A stretch of 34,237 nucleotides of DNA, taken from Bacteroidota bacterium (lineage in GTDB: Bacteria; Bacteroidota; Bacteroidia; B-17B0; Aurantibacillaceae). Position 1 is the first letter of the stretch. Each line of letters starts with the position of its first letter. Position numbers and translations under genes: made by a program. Shown here piece after piece: positions 1-6,418 of this stretch. Below the pieces are notes generated by a model that saw only the letters and a list, made by a program, of their open reading frames with translations, made no database searches and was not told the DNA's origin. Location: positions 1 to 34,237 of the forward strand of contig JACPOC010000006.1 of the NCBI GenBank assembly GCA_016185125.1. The letters are read 5' to 3'.

Positions 1-640
1 AAAAACAATTAGAAATTTGTCTCGGGAAGCATATTTGAGCGTTTTTGGTGTCCAAACGGAATAATTGTTTTTGATTTGTGTGGTAGCCCGTGCGAGTCGG
101 CCTTTAATTTATGAGTGTCGCCCGGCTTGGTTGCGCCTAACTACCTTATACCCGATATAAACCTTCGGTTAGCTCACTCACAGGTGCGAGATTGCCGAAT
201 GTTGGTAGCGGTGTGTTAAATTTAAACATTTTTTACAAATAATCAAATGGTGATACAATTTTTTGAATGCTTTTATTTCTCGGGTTGATCTTCTTTATCT
301 TTAAACTACCAATTTGTAATCCCAAATTCCTTATTTTGGCTCTTAAGCCTTCCACCTTTTTATTCATACAGCTTTTTCCACATTTGTTCATTTCAAAAAG
401 TATGCCTTGATCAGTCAATCCAACCAATTCACCCAATAATTGCCATATCAATCTTTAAAATCAGGTATGGCTGGTGCCATATCTTGAATTTCTTTTGGAA
501 CGGGGGTGAATCATCCCAATTAGCGCATTATCTTTCATTAATTGTTCTTTAGTAATTTACACTAAAGACCAGGAATATCTTTGTAAAGGACAAAAATATG
601 TATGTTAACACTTTGGAAAAGTCAAGAAACTATTTGGAGT
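1..640. other. Gene-poor left edge with structured element and decayed coding fragments
   Basis: No confident gene is visible. Positions 1-230 are richer in G+C than their surroundings and hold short inverted repeats (listed separately at 137-172), which looks like a dispersed intergenic element. On the minus strand a 72-codon open frame (451-233) begins at TTG directly after a stop. A second protein-like fragment, VPKEIQDMAPAIPDFKD followed by a stop (about 501-448), lies in another frame. Neither has a normal start or a recognisable family. I infer remnants of a decayed gene or non-coding DNA. A contig often begins in such repeated intergenic DNA. Confidence 0.4.
137..172. repeat. Nested inverted repeat in the left-edge element
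   Basis: CTAAC (137-141) pairs with GTTAG (168-172). Inside it TTATA (146-150) pairs with TATAA (156-160) around the loop CCCGA. The heptamer GCCTAAC seen here recurs at 7214-7220, and a variant, GCCTACC, occurs at 6541-6547, both beside other repeat elements in this window. The folding is seen directly; the function is unknown. Confidence 0.4.
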
Positions 641-724
641 AATGAGAAATTGGCTCGACATAAAAAATAAGATGCAAGTAAGCCAGATCAATTAATACGG
701 CTCTTATGCTATTGGAGAGAACTC

Positions 725-880
725 TTGTTAATTGACATCTTGAATGACATTGTTACCAGTTCCAATGCCAGGATTCCGATTGTGATTTTTGTTTTCATAG
801 TTGTTTGGTTTATCAACCAACTATATGAAAATACAGGTATATACATTGCCAGGATTGAAGAGGGGGAAGTAAATCCTTGA
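725..880 (+). CDS. Possible small membrane protein (about 51 aa, uncertain start)
   Basis: The frame is open from 671 to the TGA at 878-880. It lacks ATG; the first plausible start is TTG at 725, giving about 51 residues. It encodes a hydrophobic stretch (PIVIFVFIVVWFI) followed by a charged tail ending EEGEVNP, as in a one-pass membrane protein. The stop lies 21 nt before the terminator hairpin at 902-938, which is what a real plus-strand transcript would show. An ATG at 642 opens MRNWLDIKNKMQ in a different frame, so a longer gene could be frameshifted. The opposite strand is also open across this stretch, so coding strand is not secure. Confidence 0.2.
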   Translation: MLIDILNDIVTSSNARIPIVIFVFIVVWFINQLYENTGIYIARIEEGEVNP

Positions 881-901
881 TTTGGAAGAGTCCTATAAAT
901 G

Positions 902-938
902 AAAAAGGGTTTCACGTAATATTAGTGAAACCCTTTTT
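902..938. terminator. Bidirectional intrinsic terminator
   Basis: A perfect 14-bp inverted repeat pairs 902-915 with 925-938 around a 9-nt loop. The stem begins with five A and ends with five T, so either strand gives a hairpin followed by a U tract. On the minus strand it lies 55 nt beyond tRNA-Asp; on the plus strand it follows the possible small gene ending at 880. Confidence 0.8.
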
Positions 939-992
939 GTTAATCAAATCGATAAATAAGCTTTGCAACTTATTGATTATCAACACATTCTG

Positions 993-1066
993 CGGGCCGG
1001 ACGGGACTCGAACCCGCGACCTCCGCCGTGACAGGGCGGCATTCTAACCAGCTGAACTACCGGCCC
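993..1066 (-). tRNA. tRNA-Asp (anticodon GTC)
   Basis: Read on the minus strand, the gene starts GGGCCGG at 1066 and closes its acceptor stem with CCGGCCC (1000-994) plus discriminator G at 993, giving 74 nt. The T arm contains GGTTCGAGTCC, and the anticodon loop CTGTCAC carries GTC, read as aspartate. G at the discriminator position fits tRNA-Asp identity. The 3' CCA is not encoded (CAG follows). The gene lies 74 nt downstream of the peroxiredoxin fusion on the same strand, so it could be read from that operon or from its own promoter. The hairpin at 902-938 would end it. Confidence 0.97.
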
Positions 1067-1140
1067 TAGAATTGTACCTTCTCAAATTTAACTTTGAGGT
1101 TGCAAATGTAATAAAATTAATCTTTAATTCAAAATAAAAT

Positions 1141-2190
1141 TTAAGAAAGCGATAAAATTTGTTTTGCGTGATTTTCGCTTTGAACTTTATTAATGATTGT
1201 TTTTAAAATTCCGTCCGAATCAATAATAAACGTGGTTCTAACTATTCCATCATAAATGCGGCCTGCTAATTGTTTCTTACCCCAAACATCAAATGCGTTT
1301 ATTAGCTTTTTATCTACATCGGCAATTATGGGAAAAGGCAAACGATAAGCTTCCGCAAATTTGTTATGTGATTGAACATCGTCGGCACTCACTCCAACAA
1401 CGGCGTAATTATTTTTGTTCAGATATTGATACTCGTCCCTTAGGCTGCAGGATTGCGCCGTACAACCTTCGGTAAAATCTTTCGGATAAAAGTACAGGAT
1501 AAGTGTTTTTCCAATAAAATCAGTACTTTTAATTAAATGTCCGTTTTGATCCAAACCTTCAAAATAAGGAGCCGGGGTTCCTTCTCTTAGTTTAGTTGCG
1601 TGGGCTTTAAACCTATCGGGCTCTGTTTTATCATCCGAAGATTCTTCTTTTTTCTCATTATCAGAAGAATTTTTTTGAGTATTCTCTGAGGCGTTATCAG
1701 AAGTGTTTTCGGCTTTTGCCTCCTCATTTCTATGAGTTACTTTATCTACCACATTTTCAACCGCCGACTTTACAAAGCCACTGATAGCGCTGGTAATATT
1801 GCCTAACATACTATTAGATGAACTCTTTTTTGAAGAGGATTTTTTTGCTGCTTTTTTAATTACCTTTTTAACGGTTTTTACAGCCGGTTTTGAAGCAACT
1901 TTTTTCACCACTTTTTTAGCTGCCGCTTTTACAACTTTTTTTGCAGCTTTTTTAATAACTTTTTTAGCAAGCTTTTTTACTGTTTTTTTAGCAGCGGCGC
2001 CAGATGCTTTTTTAACCACTTTTTTAGCACGGCTTTTTAAATTTGTAACTTTTTTCTTAGCCGATTTAGCTGCTTTTTTTACACTTTTTTTAACAGCCGA
2101 CTTTTTTAACGGCTTTGCGCTTTTAGCAGCTTTTTTCGCTACCTTTTTTACAGCTTTTTTTGCTGATTTTTTTGCTGATTTTTTAGCCAT
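1141..2190 (-). CDS. Histone H1-like lysine-rich tail fused to PrxQ/BCP peroxiredoxin
   Basis: A 349-aa protein of three parts. Residues 1-125 are a Lys/Ala/Val/Ser tail made of AKK, VKK and KKAAKK motifs (50 lysines in the first 120 residues), like bacterial histone-H1-like proteins. A short amphipathic segment (126-152) and an acidic Asn/Ser/Glu/Asp linker (153-192) follow. Residues 198-349 are a complete thioredoxin-fold peroxiredoxin of the PrxQ/BCP type: the PxxxTxxC motif at 236-243, peroxidatic Cys243, resolving Cys248 five residues on (EGCTAQSCS), and a conserved Arg319. Typical PrxQ proteins are about 150 aa with no tail. The enzyme would reduce H2O2 or organic peroxides with thioredoxin. 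The tail is inferred to bind DNA or RNA, which would place the peroxidase on the nucleoid. The frame is continuous across the join, and nth lies 24 nt upstream on the same strand. Confidence 0.93.
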   Translation of the reverse strand: MAKKSAKKSAKKAVKKVAKKAAKSAKPLKKSAVKKSVKKAAKSAKKKVTNLKSRAKKVVKKASGAAAKKTVKKLAKKVIKKAAKKVVKAAAKKVVKKVASKPAVKTVKKVIKKAAKKSSSKKSSSNSMLGNITSAISGFVKSAVENVVDKVTHRNEEAKAENTSDNASENTQKNSSDNEKKEESSDDKTEPDRFKAHATKLREGTPAPYFEGLDQNGHLIKSTDFIGKTLILYFYPKDFTEGCTAQSCSLRDEYQYLNKNNYAVVGVSADDVQSHNKFAEAYRLPFPIIADVDKKLINAFDVWGKKQLAGRIYDGIVRTTFIIDSDGILKTIINKVQSENHAKQILSLS

Positions 2191-2214
2191 ATTATTTGAG
2201 ATTTAATTTTTCTT

Positions 2215-2880
2215 TTATGATAGTTTACTTTTTGCTTTATTCAATATATTTTTTTTAAAATAAGAGCAGTAATCGGTTAAAGGACATATTTCGCATTTTG
2301 GTTTTCTTGCCAGGCACACATACCTTCCATGCAATATTAACCAATGATGCGCTTTGGGTATTAATGCTTCTGGTATAAATTTAACTAATTGTTTTTCACA
2401 TTGCAAAGGATTTTTAGCATTAGTAGTTAACCCTAACCTGTTACTTACTCTAAAAACATGGGTATCTACCGCCATTGTTGGCTTGTTGAAGATAACCGAG
2501 GCTATAACATTTGCAGTTTTGCGGCCTACTCCCGGCAATTTTACCAATTCATCCACTTCACCGGGAACAACGCCCTCAAAATCAGTCATCAGCATTTTGG
2601 CCATGTTAACCAAATGTTTGGCTTTGTTATTGGGGTAACTGATGCTCCGGATATAAGTAAAAATAGTTTCGGCCGAGGCATGCGACAGGGCTTCGGCGTT
2701 CGGATAATGCTGAAAAAGTTTGGGAGTGGTTAAATTAACCCGTTTATCGGTGCATTGTGCGCTTAAAATAACTGCTACCAATAATTCATAAGGACTTTTA
2801 TACGAAAGTTCAGTTTCCGCCAATGGAACATTGTTTTCAAAATAATCAAGCACCGCTTTATATCTTTCCTTTTTAGTCAT
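2215..2880 (-). CDS. nth: Endonuclease III (DNA glycosylase/AP lyase)
   Basis: A 221-aa base-excision repair enzyme that removes oxidised pyrimidines and cleaves the abasic site by beta-elimination. The helix-hairpin-helix LPGVGRKTANVIA (115-127) contains catalytic Lys121, and Asp139 lies in AVDTHVFRVSNRLG, matching Lys120 and Asp138 of the E. coli enzyme. The C-terminal iron-sulfur loop has Cys189, Cys196, Cys199 and Cys205 with the standard Cx6Cx2Cx5C spacing. Length is normal for the family. It starts at ATG 2880, divergent from the GldI-like gene at 2945. The histone-tail/peroxiredoxin gene starts 24 nt after its stop, so the two are probably one transcript. Confidence 0.98.
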   Translation of the reverse strand: MTKKERYKAVLDYFENNVPLAETELSYKSPYELLVAVILSAQCTDKRVNLTTPKLFQHYPNAEALSHASAETIFTYIRSISYPNNKAKHLVNMAKMLMTDFEGVVPGEVDELVKLPGVGRKTANVIASVIFNKPTMAVDTHVFRVSNRLGLTTNAKNPLQCEKQLVKFIPEALIPKAHHWLILHGRYVCLARKPKCEICPLTDYCSYFKKNILNKAKSKLS

Positions 2881-2944: not shown

Positions 2945-3475
2945 ATGTACATTCGTTTATTAAAATTATTTATTCCTTCTTTAATTATTTTTATACTGTT
3001 TAATTGCCGGCCTGAAAATCCTGTAAAAAAACCTGTAATTTATAATAAAGACACGCTTCAAAAACAATTTATTAAAGCCAATCAGCAACTCATGCAAAAG
3101 GAGAATGATGAGATGGATTATTACGCCAAGAGCCATAATATGCCTTTTTACAGAACAACTTCCGGCATTCGCTATTATGTTTATGAACCCTCTCTAAAAG
3201 GCGACAGCATTAAAGATGATATGGAAATAACCATAGATTACGAAGTGAAATTATTAGATGGAACACTTTGTTATTCCTCAAAAACAGAAGGCAAAAAAAC
3301 ATTTGTGGTAGCGCATGAAAATATAGAAAGCGGTATTCACAAGGGTGTTACCTATTTAAAAAGAGGCGACAAAGCCCTGCTGTTGATTCCCTCTCCGTTG
3401 GCCCATGGCTTATTGGGTGATTTTAAGAAAATTCCACCGCAAATGCCCATTCTTTATGATGTTCAGATTCATTAA
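2945..3475 (+). CDS. GldI-like FKBP-type prolyl isomerase lipoprotein
   Basis: A 176-aa exported lipoprotein. A hydrophobic signal segment ends in the lipobox LFNC (Cys21), which supports the ATG at 2945. An FKBP-fold domain occupies about 75-176 (ITIDYEVKLLDGT at 95-107, then KRGDKALLLIPS and KIPPQMPILYDV). Order, length and the one-FKBP lipoprotein layout match GldI, the gliding-associated lipoprotein of Flavobacteria. The pocket is degenerate: the usual FD pair is CY (109-110), the central Trp is replaced (SGIHKGV), and the AYG tyrosine is His154. It may therefore bind prolyl peptides more than isomerise them. First gene of a four-gene isomerase cluster; the next gene overlaps its 3' end. 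Gliding itself cannot be inferred from this window. Confidence 0.8.
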   Translation: MYIRLLKLFIPSLIIFILFNCRPENPVKKPVIYNKDTLQKQFIKANQQLMQKENDEMDYYAKSHNMPFYRTTSGIRYYVYEPSLKGDSIKDDMEITIDYEVKLLDGTLCYSSKTEGKKTFVVAHENIESGIHKGVTYLKRGDKALLLIPSPLAHGLLGDFKKIPPQMPILYDVQIH

Positions 3476-4376
3476 TAATTTTTTTTTTATTGGAATATTG
3501 GTTATACTTACTTACAGTTGTAAGAGGCCAAGCGCTAAAAACTCATATACCAAAACTGCGGATGGTTATTGGTATAGTTTAGTGTCTTACAGTCAGGATA
3601 ATGATTCTGTAGCGCCGGCTTATTCCCGATGGGTAATTGCAGAGTTTAAAACGCAGCGCGATTCCGTTTTTTTTGATACTAAAAATGATTTAAGAGATCG
3701 TTTTTTTATAAAAAGTGCCGTATCATCCTCCGCTAATTATTTAAAAAAAGCAATTTCTTTTTGCGCGGAAGGAGACAGCATGAGCGTACTCATTCATCCC
3801 GCCGATTTTTTTATGCAGCAATTTAAAAGCCCCGTGCCCTTGTTTTGCCAAAAAGACAGCGTGATTAAGGTTAATTTTAAAGTCAAAAAATTACTCACCC
3901 AACAACAACTTGCTAAATTAACTCAAAATATAGCCAATGAAGAACAATTGGAAATAGAAACGTATTTCGGTTCGGCAAAAAAAGCTGAACTTTCAAAAGA
4001 TCCGCTTGGTTTCTATTGGGTTCAAAAGCCCGAATCTGCTGATACTTCAGGCGTTTACAAGGGCCAATTGATTACTTTAAGTTATTCCGGCGGATTTTTA
4101 AATGGCCGAATGATTGATCAGTCAACTGAAGAATTCAAATTAATTTACGGCACACCCGATCAATTAATAAAAGGCTTAAATATTGTTATTTCGAGGCTAA
4201 AAAAAGGACAGACTTCAAAAATAATATTACCTTCGCACCTCGCATTTGGAGAAAATGGAAGCAGTAACGGAAGCGTTCCTCCTTTTACACCAATGTTGTA
4301 TAAAATAAAGATAATTGATATAAAAACTAATCCTGAAGCAGATCAAACTCCTGTCAGAAAAAAAACAACAACATGA
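3456..4376 (+). CDS. Double-FKBP lipoprotein (partly degenerate prolyl isomerase)
   Basis: I place the start at ATG 3456 (or 3459), inside the end of the previous gene, because it gives a clean lipoprotein signal: MMFRFINNFFFIGILVILTYSC, written here as residues 1-22 with Cys22 as the lipid site. A longer frame upstream from 3405 would bury the signal. The 306-aa product has a diverged FKBP-like domain (about 30-150) and a clearer C-terminal FKBP domain (about 198-295; LSYSGGFLNGRMID, LPSHLAFGE, VPPFTPMLYKIKI). In the second domain the pocket Trp is Leu and the AYG Tyr is Phe, so activity is probably weak. It overlaps the next gene by ATGA. Confidence 0.8.
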   Translation: MMFRFINNFFFIGILVILTYSCKRPSAKNSYTKTADGYWYSLVSYSQDNDSVAPAYSRWVIAEFKTQRDSVFFDTKNDLRDRFFIKSAVSSSANYLKKAISFCAEGDSMSVLIHPADFFMQQFKSPVPLFCQKDSVIKVNFKVKKLLTQQQLAKLTQNIANEEQLEIETYFGSAKKAELSKDPLGFYWVQKPESADTSGVYKGQLITLSYSGGFLNGRMIDQSTEEFKLIYGTPDQLIKGLNIVISRLKKGQTSKIILPSHLAFGENGSSNGSVPPFTPMLYKIKIIDIKTNPEADQTPVRKKTTT

Positions 4377-5314
4377 AAAAAATCCCTGTACTTCTTTCTT
4401 CACTTGCTGCTGCCGCTATATTATTTAGCTCTTGCAACAACTCAAAATTTGAAGGTTATGAAATGGCCGATAACGGTTTGTATTATAAATTTTTTAAGCA
4501 TGATAAAGATGCTCCAACCGCAAAGGAAGGAGATGGCTTAAATATCCGTTATGTAATCATGAATCAAAAAAATGATTCTATTATACTTGATTCTAAAAAC
4601 GCCAGTCCCGATGGTTCGGGTTATTATAATTTCGGTTTAACAAAATCCAGTTTTAAAGGCAGTTTAGAAGACGGGATGATGATGATGGCAAAAGGCGACA
4701 GTGCATCGTTTATTTTTTCAGCCGATTCTTTTTTCTTAAAGACATTACACTCTAACGAACTTCCTAAACAAATTAAACAAGGCGATCATTTAAAAGCTTT
4801 GCTTTGCGTAAAGGAAATTACCGGAAAAACAGAAGTGGAGGCCAAACAGAAAAAAATGAAAGCCGAGCAAATGGAAGCTATGAAAGAAATGGAAGTGAAC
4901 GAAATTCCTTTACGCGATAAATATATTTCCGATAACAAAGTTACGGCTAAGCCAACCGCTTCAGGATTATATTATATTGAAACCAAAAAAGGAACAGGCT
5001 CTTCACCTAAAGAAACTGATATTGTAAAAGTGCATTATACCGGTAAATTGTTAGACGGAACTATATTTGACAGTTCGGTTGGTAAAGAACCTATAGAATT
5101 TCCTCTAAATCAGGTTATTAAGGGATGGACAGAAGGTTTACAATTAATGAAAAAAGGCGGTAAGGCTAACTTAATTATTCCTTCTTCCATTGGTTACGGC
5201 CCTCAGGGTGGCGGCCCAATTCCTCCGTTTTCAACTCTTTTATTTGAAGTTGAATTACTGGATTTTAAACCGGCTCCGGCAGGTGGCCCTCAAGGTGCGC
5301 CACAGCCTCATTAA
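4373..5314 (+). CDS. Double-FKBP lipoprotein with a canonical C-terminal isomerase domain
   Basis: A 313-aa lipoprotein; signal ends LFSSC (Cys21). The N-terminal half (about 30-150) is a diverged FKBP fold. A charged, Met/Lys/Glu-rich helical linker (151-180) leads to a C-terminal FKBP domain (about 195-298) with the full pocket: Tyr222 (VHYTG), Phe232-Asp233 (IFDSS), Val248-Ile249, Trp252 (VIKGW), Tyr275 (GYG), Ile283 (PIPP) and Phe291. This is expected to be an active prolyl cis-trans isomerase in the periplasm. Its architecture matches the preceding gene, which suggests tandem duplication with loss of pocket residues in the upstream copy. The ATGA overlap implies translational coupling. 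Confidence 0.9.
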   Translation: MKKIPVLLSSLAAAAILFSSCNNSKFEGYEMADNGLYYKFFKHDKDAPTAKEGDGLNIRYVIMNQKNDSIILDSKNASPDGSGYYNFGLTKSSFKGSLEDGMMMMAKGDSASFIFSADSFFLKTLHSNELPKQIKQGDHLKALLCVKEITGKTEVEAKQKKMKAEQMEAMKEMEVNEIPLRDKYISDNKVTAKPTASGLYYIETKKGTGSSPKETDIVKVHYTGKLLDGTIFDSSVGKEPIEFPLNQVIKGWTEGLQLMKKGGKANLIIPSSIGYGPQGGGPIPPFSTLLFEVELLDFKPAPAGGPQGAPQPH

Positions 5315-5356
5315 TTTTTGGCAGCAAATTTGTAATTAAATAGTAAACCAAGCAAT

Positions 5357-6418
5357 ATGAAAAAATTACTTTTAATAATTACTGCCCTATCCGCTTTTAA
5401 TTTTGGAGCGATGGCACAAAAAAAAGGAAAACAAAAAATAAGTAAAATGGATAAAGAATTTTTAAGCAAACAACCCGATGGCATCTACGCCAAATTTGAA
5501 ACCAGTAAAGGAAATATTTACACAGTTCTTGAACACAAGAAAACCCCGATGACGGTTGGTAACTTTGTTGGACTTGCTGAAGGTGCTATTAAAAACACAG
5601 CTAAGGCAGAAGGTGTTCCTTACTATGATGGATTAAAATTTCATCGTGTAATTCCTAATTTTATGATTCAGGGTGGCTGCCCCTTAGGCACAGGAACCGG
5701 CGATCCGGGTTATAAGTTTGGAGATGAATTCGACTCTACCTTAAAGCATAAAGGTCCGGGTATATTAAGTATGGCAAACGCCGGCCCTGGAACTAACGGT
5801 TCGCAGTTTTTTATTACTCACGTTGAAACTCCATGGTTGGATGGAAAACATACTGTATTTGGTCATGTGATAGAAGGCCAAGATGTGGTGAATAAAATTG
5901 TAGGTAACGATACTCTTAAAAAGTTAGTAATACTCCGTAAAGGAAAAGAGGCAGAAGCGTTTAATGCGGCCGCTACTTTTACCGCCGAGCAAGGGAATGC
6001 TAGTGCCAAACAAGCCGCTAAAGAAAAAGCAGAAACAGAAGCCGCAAAGGTCGCTTCAGAGTCAGCTTTGAAGGCATTCGCTAACTCAAAAACAACTGCT
6101 TCCGGTTTAAAATATATTGTTGAAAAAGAAGGCACGGGCGCAGCACCAACTGCAACCAGTAACGTAACCGTGCATTATACCGGTAAGTTTTTAGATGGTA
6201 AAGTGTTTGACAGCAGCGTACAACGCGGGCAGCCTGCTTCCTTTGGATTAAACCAGGTAATTAAAGGTTGGACAGAAGGTTTGCAGTTAATGAAAGAAGG
6301 AGCAAAATATACTTTTTACATTCCTTATTCTTTAGCTTATGGCGAACAAGGTTATCCGGGAGCAATTCCACCAAAAAGTGATCTTATTTTTGAGGTAGAG
6401 TTAATTAAGGTGAATTAA
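5357..6418 (+). CDS. Secreted cyclophilin-FKBP fusion prolyl isomerase
   Basis: A 353-aa exported protein with a signal peptide ending AMAQ (about 1-21). Residues 45-200 form a cyclophilin domain with its active-site signature: Arg97 ([13 protein letters not shown]), Phe102, Gln105, the SQFFI block, Trp160 and His165 ([12 protein letters not shown]). An Ala/Lys/Glu-rich helical linker (about 203-242) joins it to an FKBP domain (about 246-352) with a full pocket: Tyr274, Phe285-Asp286, Val301-Ile302, Trp305, Tyr328, Ile337, Phe345. Both domains should be active. Fusions of the two unrelated isomerase families are known as dual-family immunophilins. It is the last of four isomerase genes, 42 nt after the previous one. 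Confidence 0.94.

Follow-up and report, generated by a model that had tools for sequence, protein, structure and literature searches.

A PrxQ peroxiredoxin on a lysine-rich, histone H1-like tail, encoded beside endonuclease III in uncultured Bacteroidia

Hydrogen peroxide harms DNA mainly by way of iron that is on the DNA or close to it, and where a scavenger is located could matter as much as how much of it there is. We know of no solved PrxQ/BCP structure that carries a long lysine-rich tail, and to our knowledge the yeast nuclear thiol peroxidase Dot5 has no long H1-like tail either. Solved PrxQ/BCP chains run to ~150-180 aa, compared with 349 aa in the protein described here, which has the domain sequence, the two cysteines, and the fold in common with Sulfolobus Bcp1 (3drn) and Xanthomonas PrxQ (5iiz). 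Dot5, which is reported to act with Tsa1 against genome rearrangement (PMC2688748), is a functional analogue in that it is a thiol peroxidase located with the chromosomes, and its structure (2a4v) is among the structure matches of our domain, but it is placed by the eukaryotic nuclear compartment rather than by a tail. In the peroxiredoxin-nitroreductase fusion 4eo3 a PrxQ-like domain is also fused to another protein; there the partner is a different enzyme, and the description includes neither a cationic tail nor a repair enzyme. By analogy, the closest published principle is that of the H1-like tails of Pseudomonas AlgP and PhaF, which are reported to bind DNA or are thought to tether their proteins to the nucleoid (PMC9239181). 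AlgP and PhaF resemble our protein in that a protein domain carries a long cationic tail of the H1 type, but in them this tail is C-terminal and made of KPAA tandem repeats, whereas here it is N-terminal, consists of AKK-type runs, and has an enzyme as its cargo. HC2, Hc1, and other bacterial H1-like proteins share the Lys/Ala-rich composition of the tail, but their family models do not recognise our protein.

The window, by which we mean the whole stretch of 34,237 nucleotides analysed, carries on its minus strand a fused ORF of 349 aa (1141-2190; ATG at 2190, stop codon at 1141-1143) in which a lysine-rich tail, a linker, and a PrxQ domain follow one another in a single uninterrupted frame, as the first-pass annotation had read it. 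The tail (aa 1-125; 1816-2190, minus strand) contains 52 lysines, 1 arginine, 27 alanines, and no aspartate or glutamate, giving a net charge of +53, and the earlier count of 50 lysines within 120 residues is reproduced over the first 120. By eye, the sequence consists of AKK-type runs in an N-terminal position. AlphaFold2, supplied with a 7-row alignment, predicts helices in the tail with confidence that ranges from low to good (pLDDT per block 50-91), to be read with the caution that predicted helices in Lys/Ala-rich sequence call for. Both other forward frames of the tail contain stops; one reverse frame is open, and an antisense ORF found there (1799-2206, plus strand) was dismissed as the shadow of the tail. 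Used as a query against its own genome at E values up to 10, the tail matched only the fused ORF, in a search whose composition correction may mask weaker matches. The H1-like model NF038053 gave the window protein 14.7 bits, below its cut-off of 80, and HC2 (PF07382) was absent from the protein's matches at E values up to 1. The tail is like H1-like tails in composition, and it reaches the cut-off of no named H1-like family model.

The linker (aa 126-193; 1612-1815, minus strand) consists of a helix predicted by AlphaFold2 at low confidence (aa 129-157), followed by an acidic stretch of Ser, Asn, Asp, and Glu; the whole linker is modelled at low confidence. Its net charge is -6 and its pI 4.6, with aa 126-152 neutral and only aa 153-193 really acidic. 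The suggestion that an acidic linker could control binding by the tail did not generalize: of 33 fused rows compared, only 5 have a net negative stretch ahead of PrxQ (the set, used also for extension length, includes G024 and omits G009), and we set the linker aside as a general switch. The domain that follows (aa 194-349; 1144-1611, minus strand) is a PrxQ by every feature of sequence and fold examined, with predicted thioredoxin-dependent peroxidase activity. Cys243 (1462-1464, minus strand) and Cys248 (1447-1449, minus strand) are the sole cysteines of the fused protein. They have the C-x4-C spacing that is the rule in PrxQ and are presumed to be the peroxidatic and the resolving residue, respectively. 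The first-pass description of a complete PrxQ domain with both cysteines is upheld. With 145.3 bits the protein passes the NCBIfam PrxQ/BCP model NF006960, whose cut-off of 140 the next PrxQ-like protein of the same genome, at 105.7, does not reach; Pfam AhpC-TSA matches the window protein at 3.2e-35. In the AlphaFold2 model (again from a 7-row alignment) most ten-residue blocks of the domain score above 90 and residues 308-315 below 50, and a Foldseek search matches the domain to structures of BCP/PrxQ proteins, with a TM-score of 0.87 (target length) and 37% identity to Sulfolobus Bcp1 3drn.

We surveyed the window's family in 87 genomes from 10 genera. With the E value limited to 1e-30, PrxQ was matched in 74 of them, at 75 loci in total. 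These comprise 33 fused tail-PrxQ loci, 8 with short tails (6-14 Lys), 12 in which tail and enzyme are split, 3 without a tail, and 19 triples, in which nth, a lysine-rich part, and PrxQ follow one another in a single open frame (in one of them, G024, nth is broken); the classes were set by script thresholds, with two rows corrected by hand, namely G009, counted as fused though cut by a contig end (as G453 is too), and G024, counted as a triple. Extension length among the fused rows ranges from 24 to 194 aa. A full-length relative (67% identity) is present in G003, and long matches were found in G021, G025, and G007. The recurrence of the architecture in related genomes, to which the first-pass annotation had looked for corroboration, is therefore found, with the fused frame present in independent genomes, and a chance origin of that frame is ruled out by this recurrence, by the stops in the other forward frames, and by a dN below dS in the extension. 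The expectation that tail and enzyme would not turn out to be two separate genes stood in part: 33 of the 75 loci are fused, and 12 carry the two as overlapping frames. Thirteen family genomes have no PrxQ match, among them G006, which is listed as 100% complete; 11 of the 13 also have no nth match at E 1e-40, which is compatible with a locus that fell into gaps of the assembly or was deleted whole. Separately, a locus from a MAG titled Chitinophagaceae (L066, 4920-5489) has a short lysine-rich PrxQ extension, with no nth found in 5.8 kb.

Split loci are of one kind throughout, the lysine-rich ORF and PrxQ lying in different frames that overlap in 12 of 12. By eye, the overlap holds an ATG start codon in nine of the twelve and a GTG in one. 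In G017 (L029) and G019 (L043) the stretch of the PrxQ frame from the upstream stop to the start of the domain contains neither ATG nor GTG nor TTG, so that translation would seem to need a frameshift or a rare start codon; these two loci have an AGGAGG run at the overlap in common. The arrangement suggests that the split lysine-rich ORF and PrxQ are probably translationally coupled. In a quick PrxQ tree, the fused G025/G007 pair is sister to the split G034/G020/G018 group (SH-aLRT 97), and the DNA of these two groups can be aligned across the junction; fused and split forms thus interconvert over short distances. The same tree, from which the outgroup rows L046, L054, and L059 were omitted (two of them wrongly classed, one lying in a long frame), has 89 inner branches, of which 45 stay open, and calls for at least five changes for the split form and at least six for the triple. 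Covalent joining of tail and PrxQ is not always kept, and at the split loci the tail protein may function independently. Two further features were seen at individual loci. The split lysine-rich proteins of L071 (G425) and L086 (G437) have a C-terminal His-rich acidic stretch in place of the Ser/Asn-rich acidic one, and in L059 (G052; 452-2614, plus strand) PrxQ lies in a 720-aa open frame with an upstream protein that by eye resembles an M23-type peptidase, either through fusion or through loss of a stop.

Directly upstream of the fused ORF lies nth (2215-2880, minus strand), which the first-pass annotation did not mention, encoding endonuclease III, for which the HhH-GPD, HHH, and iron-sulphur loop models all score over cut-off. 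A spacer of 24 nt (2191-2214, minus strand) runs from the nth stop to the start of the fused ORF, and the two genes share a reading frame, separated by the nth stop and by one more in-frame stop within the spacer. In 60 of the 75 family loci the gene precedes PrxQ in the same orientation, several of the other 15 being shortened by contig ends. No nth was found close to the long-tailed PrxQ of G426, G427, and G445. Because 4 of 20 loci of the class outgroup also have nth next to PrxQ in the same orientation, the nth-PrxQ pair may predate the long tail. In G059 an nth-like gene (39% identity) lies near PrxQ on the opposite strand. On the other side of nth in the window, and divergent from it, four successive ORFs (2945-6418, plus strand) resemble FKBP-type prolyl isomerases by eye, the last of them with a cyclophilin-like part as well.

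In a sister genus (g27), 17 of the 20 genomes searched have a PrxQ locus, and at 16 of these 17 loci one frame encodes Nth, then a linker and a lysine-rich stretch, and finally PrxQ. These triple frames measure 416-459 aa from stop to stop, with 11-27 lysines in linker plus tail, a region that has no in-frame stop in any of the 16, compared with 2 to 11 stops in the other two frames. From these open frames it appears that each may be made as one protein; all 16 also have an internal Met in the linker/tail region, and a second, shorter product is therefore possible. Similar frames are found in the window's own genus in G002, G027, and G024. In the last of these (L038), nth is broken by an upstream change of frame, after which its frame extends through the lysine-rich part to PrxQ, as a result of either sequencing error or decay. 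Pfam found both HhH-GPD and AhpC-TSA in all three triple frames scanned; all three endonuclease III models score over cut-off in G408, the iron-sulphur loop has no match in G460, and in G464 that model reaches 19.3 against a cut-off of 20.5.

The extension is under purifying selection, weaker than that on PrxQ in most pairs. Among 13 fused pairs, the dN of the extension lies below dS in 12, dS being undefined in one, and in most of the 13 it is two to six times the dN of PrxQ, which indicates that the extension is kept as a lysine-rich stretch and not residue by residue. For the closest fused pair compared (G209/G179), dN and dS are 0.016 and 0.126 in the extension and 0.011 and 0.219 in PrxQ. 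We considered whether the tail might be as strongly constrained as the enzyme; this is true only of the tail part in G025/G007 (0.042 and 0.640 over 116 codons, compared with 0.040 and 0.463 in the PrxQ domain and 0.210 and 0.950 in the linker), the extension mostly evolving faster than PrxQ over the 13 pairs. The G000/G003 tail has 0.343 and 1.856. The split lysine-rich ORFs gave dN and dS of 0.022 and 0.317 (G020/G018) and 0.136 and 0.766 (G020/G034), two more pairs being saturated. Linker plus tail in genus g27 is weakly constrained: among the 15 of 110 pairs listed, dN/dS exceeds 1 in 2, lies at 0.59-0.94 in 10, and at 0.20-0.35 in 3, and four chosen pairs gave 0.20-0.39 (dN 0.13-0.21 against dS 0.45-0.94).

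The tail looks family-specific in this sample, judged from the frames compared. A search of the phylum (395 genomes, 319 with a match) produced, among the matches listed, no other that starts before residue 171. Because a tail without a linker would not lengthen the match, 13 phylum loci with long frames or early starts were read directly; these, namely G659 and 12 loci from the list whose open frames exceed 205 aa, have 0-8 lysines ahead of the domain, counted for G148, G673, and G129 in a frame shorter than the one listed. In the class (395 genomes, 359 with a match), the two longest non-family frames noticed among the matches listed, G220 and G124, were read, and neither is lysine-rich. No description of a tail-PrxQ architecture was found among the papers listed in our literature searches, judged on titles and the starts of abstracts in a collection with few subscription journals and no preprints. 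We found no mention of fused or multi-domain forms in the main text of the peroxiredoxin atlas (PMC5302317); Deinococcus PrxQ is the subject of PMC6590489.

We lean toward a reading in which the polycationic H1-like tail keeps PrxQ on a polyanion of the cell, the chromosome being the likeliest, so that the enzyme removes peroxide near DNA beside endonuclease III. From its composition, such a tail would bind a polyanion of this kind, with DNA the probable ligand; the enzyme so held would clear peroxide close to DNA, with local protection as the presumed benefit; and endonuclease III, encoded directly upstream, would repair oxidised bases, so that scavenging and repair could be coordinated. The idea of a tether, put forward in the first-pass annotation, is plausible, and the linkage to nth strengthens it. 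Against this reading stand the 12 of 75 loci that are split, the 3 of 75 without a tail, the variable length and fast evolution of the extension, the weak constraint on linker plus tail in genus g27, the long tails of G426, G427, and G445 away from any nth found, and the low scores with H1-like family models. The case for it is based on recurrence, composition, and linkage, and the reading is no less likely for the generally weaker constraint on the tail. A bolder proposal, which we offer tentatively and hold to be somewhat short of probable, is a chromosome-bound enzyme that both prevents and repairs damage: with Nth, H1-like stretch, and PrxQ as one polypeptide in the sister genus and as adjacent genes in the window organism, a single nucleoid-held machine would remove peroxide and excise oxidised bases.

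The lysine-rich part may instead have been a separate H1/HC2-like nucleoid protein encoded between nth and prxQ, its fusion a by-product of overlapping, coupled genes that brings no gain for the enzyme. The 12 split loci of 75 with their overlapping frames are what such a history would leave behind, and the window linker aligns with the C-terminus of the split lysine-rich proteins (in 11 segments chosen by hand from 17 candidates, the alignment being weak for G001 and G016); the stand-alone lysine-rich ORF of G030 has an HC2 match of 19.3 bits, below the cut-off of 40. We nevertheless think this origin unlikely, given that the fusion is kept in 33 loci, a longer frame in 19 more, and the triple frame in 16 of 17 loci in genus g27, and that the G001 split ORF has no Pfam match at 0.05 and three split lysine-rich ORFs no NCBIfam match at 0.001. 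Somewhat less likely again is a tail directed to another polyanion, whether polyphosphate granules, RNA, or ribosomes. Polyphosphate comes into consideration as a ligand because AlgP is reported to sit on polyphosphate granules and to need its H1-like C-terminus for their spacing (PMC9239181), and the window's genome encodes a polyphosphate kinase, but in 60 of 75 loci the linked gene serves DNA repair, and this and the Nth-tail-PrxQ frames point to DNA. An artefact, in which misassembly or a frame error fused two genes in one MAG, we consider extremely improbable. The assemblies are mostly multi-contig, and the absence of nth from 11 of the 13 genomes without PrxQ looks as if assembly often breaks there, yet the same full-length join is present in G003 and in many more species, and selection acts across the extension. 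The first-pass annotation had wanted the join compared in independent genomes; it holds over its full length in G003, and misassembly of the join is excluded because the two-part architecture recurs in independent genomes.

Returning to the tethered enzyme, these loci suggest that in uncultured Bacteroidia, where PrxQ rides on an H1-like tail beside nth, the chromosome may be the place where both peroxide removal and repair are kept. Natural relatives that are fused, split, short-tailed, or tail-less offer a ready comparison for local protection. The boldest part of the finding is the Nth-tail-PrxQ frame, which would physically couple oxidant removal to base excision repair, provided that it is translated into a single protein.
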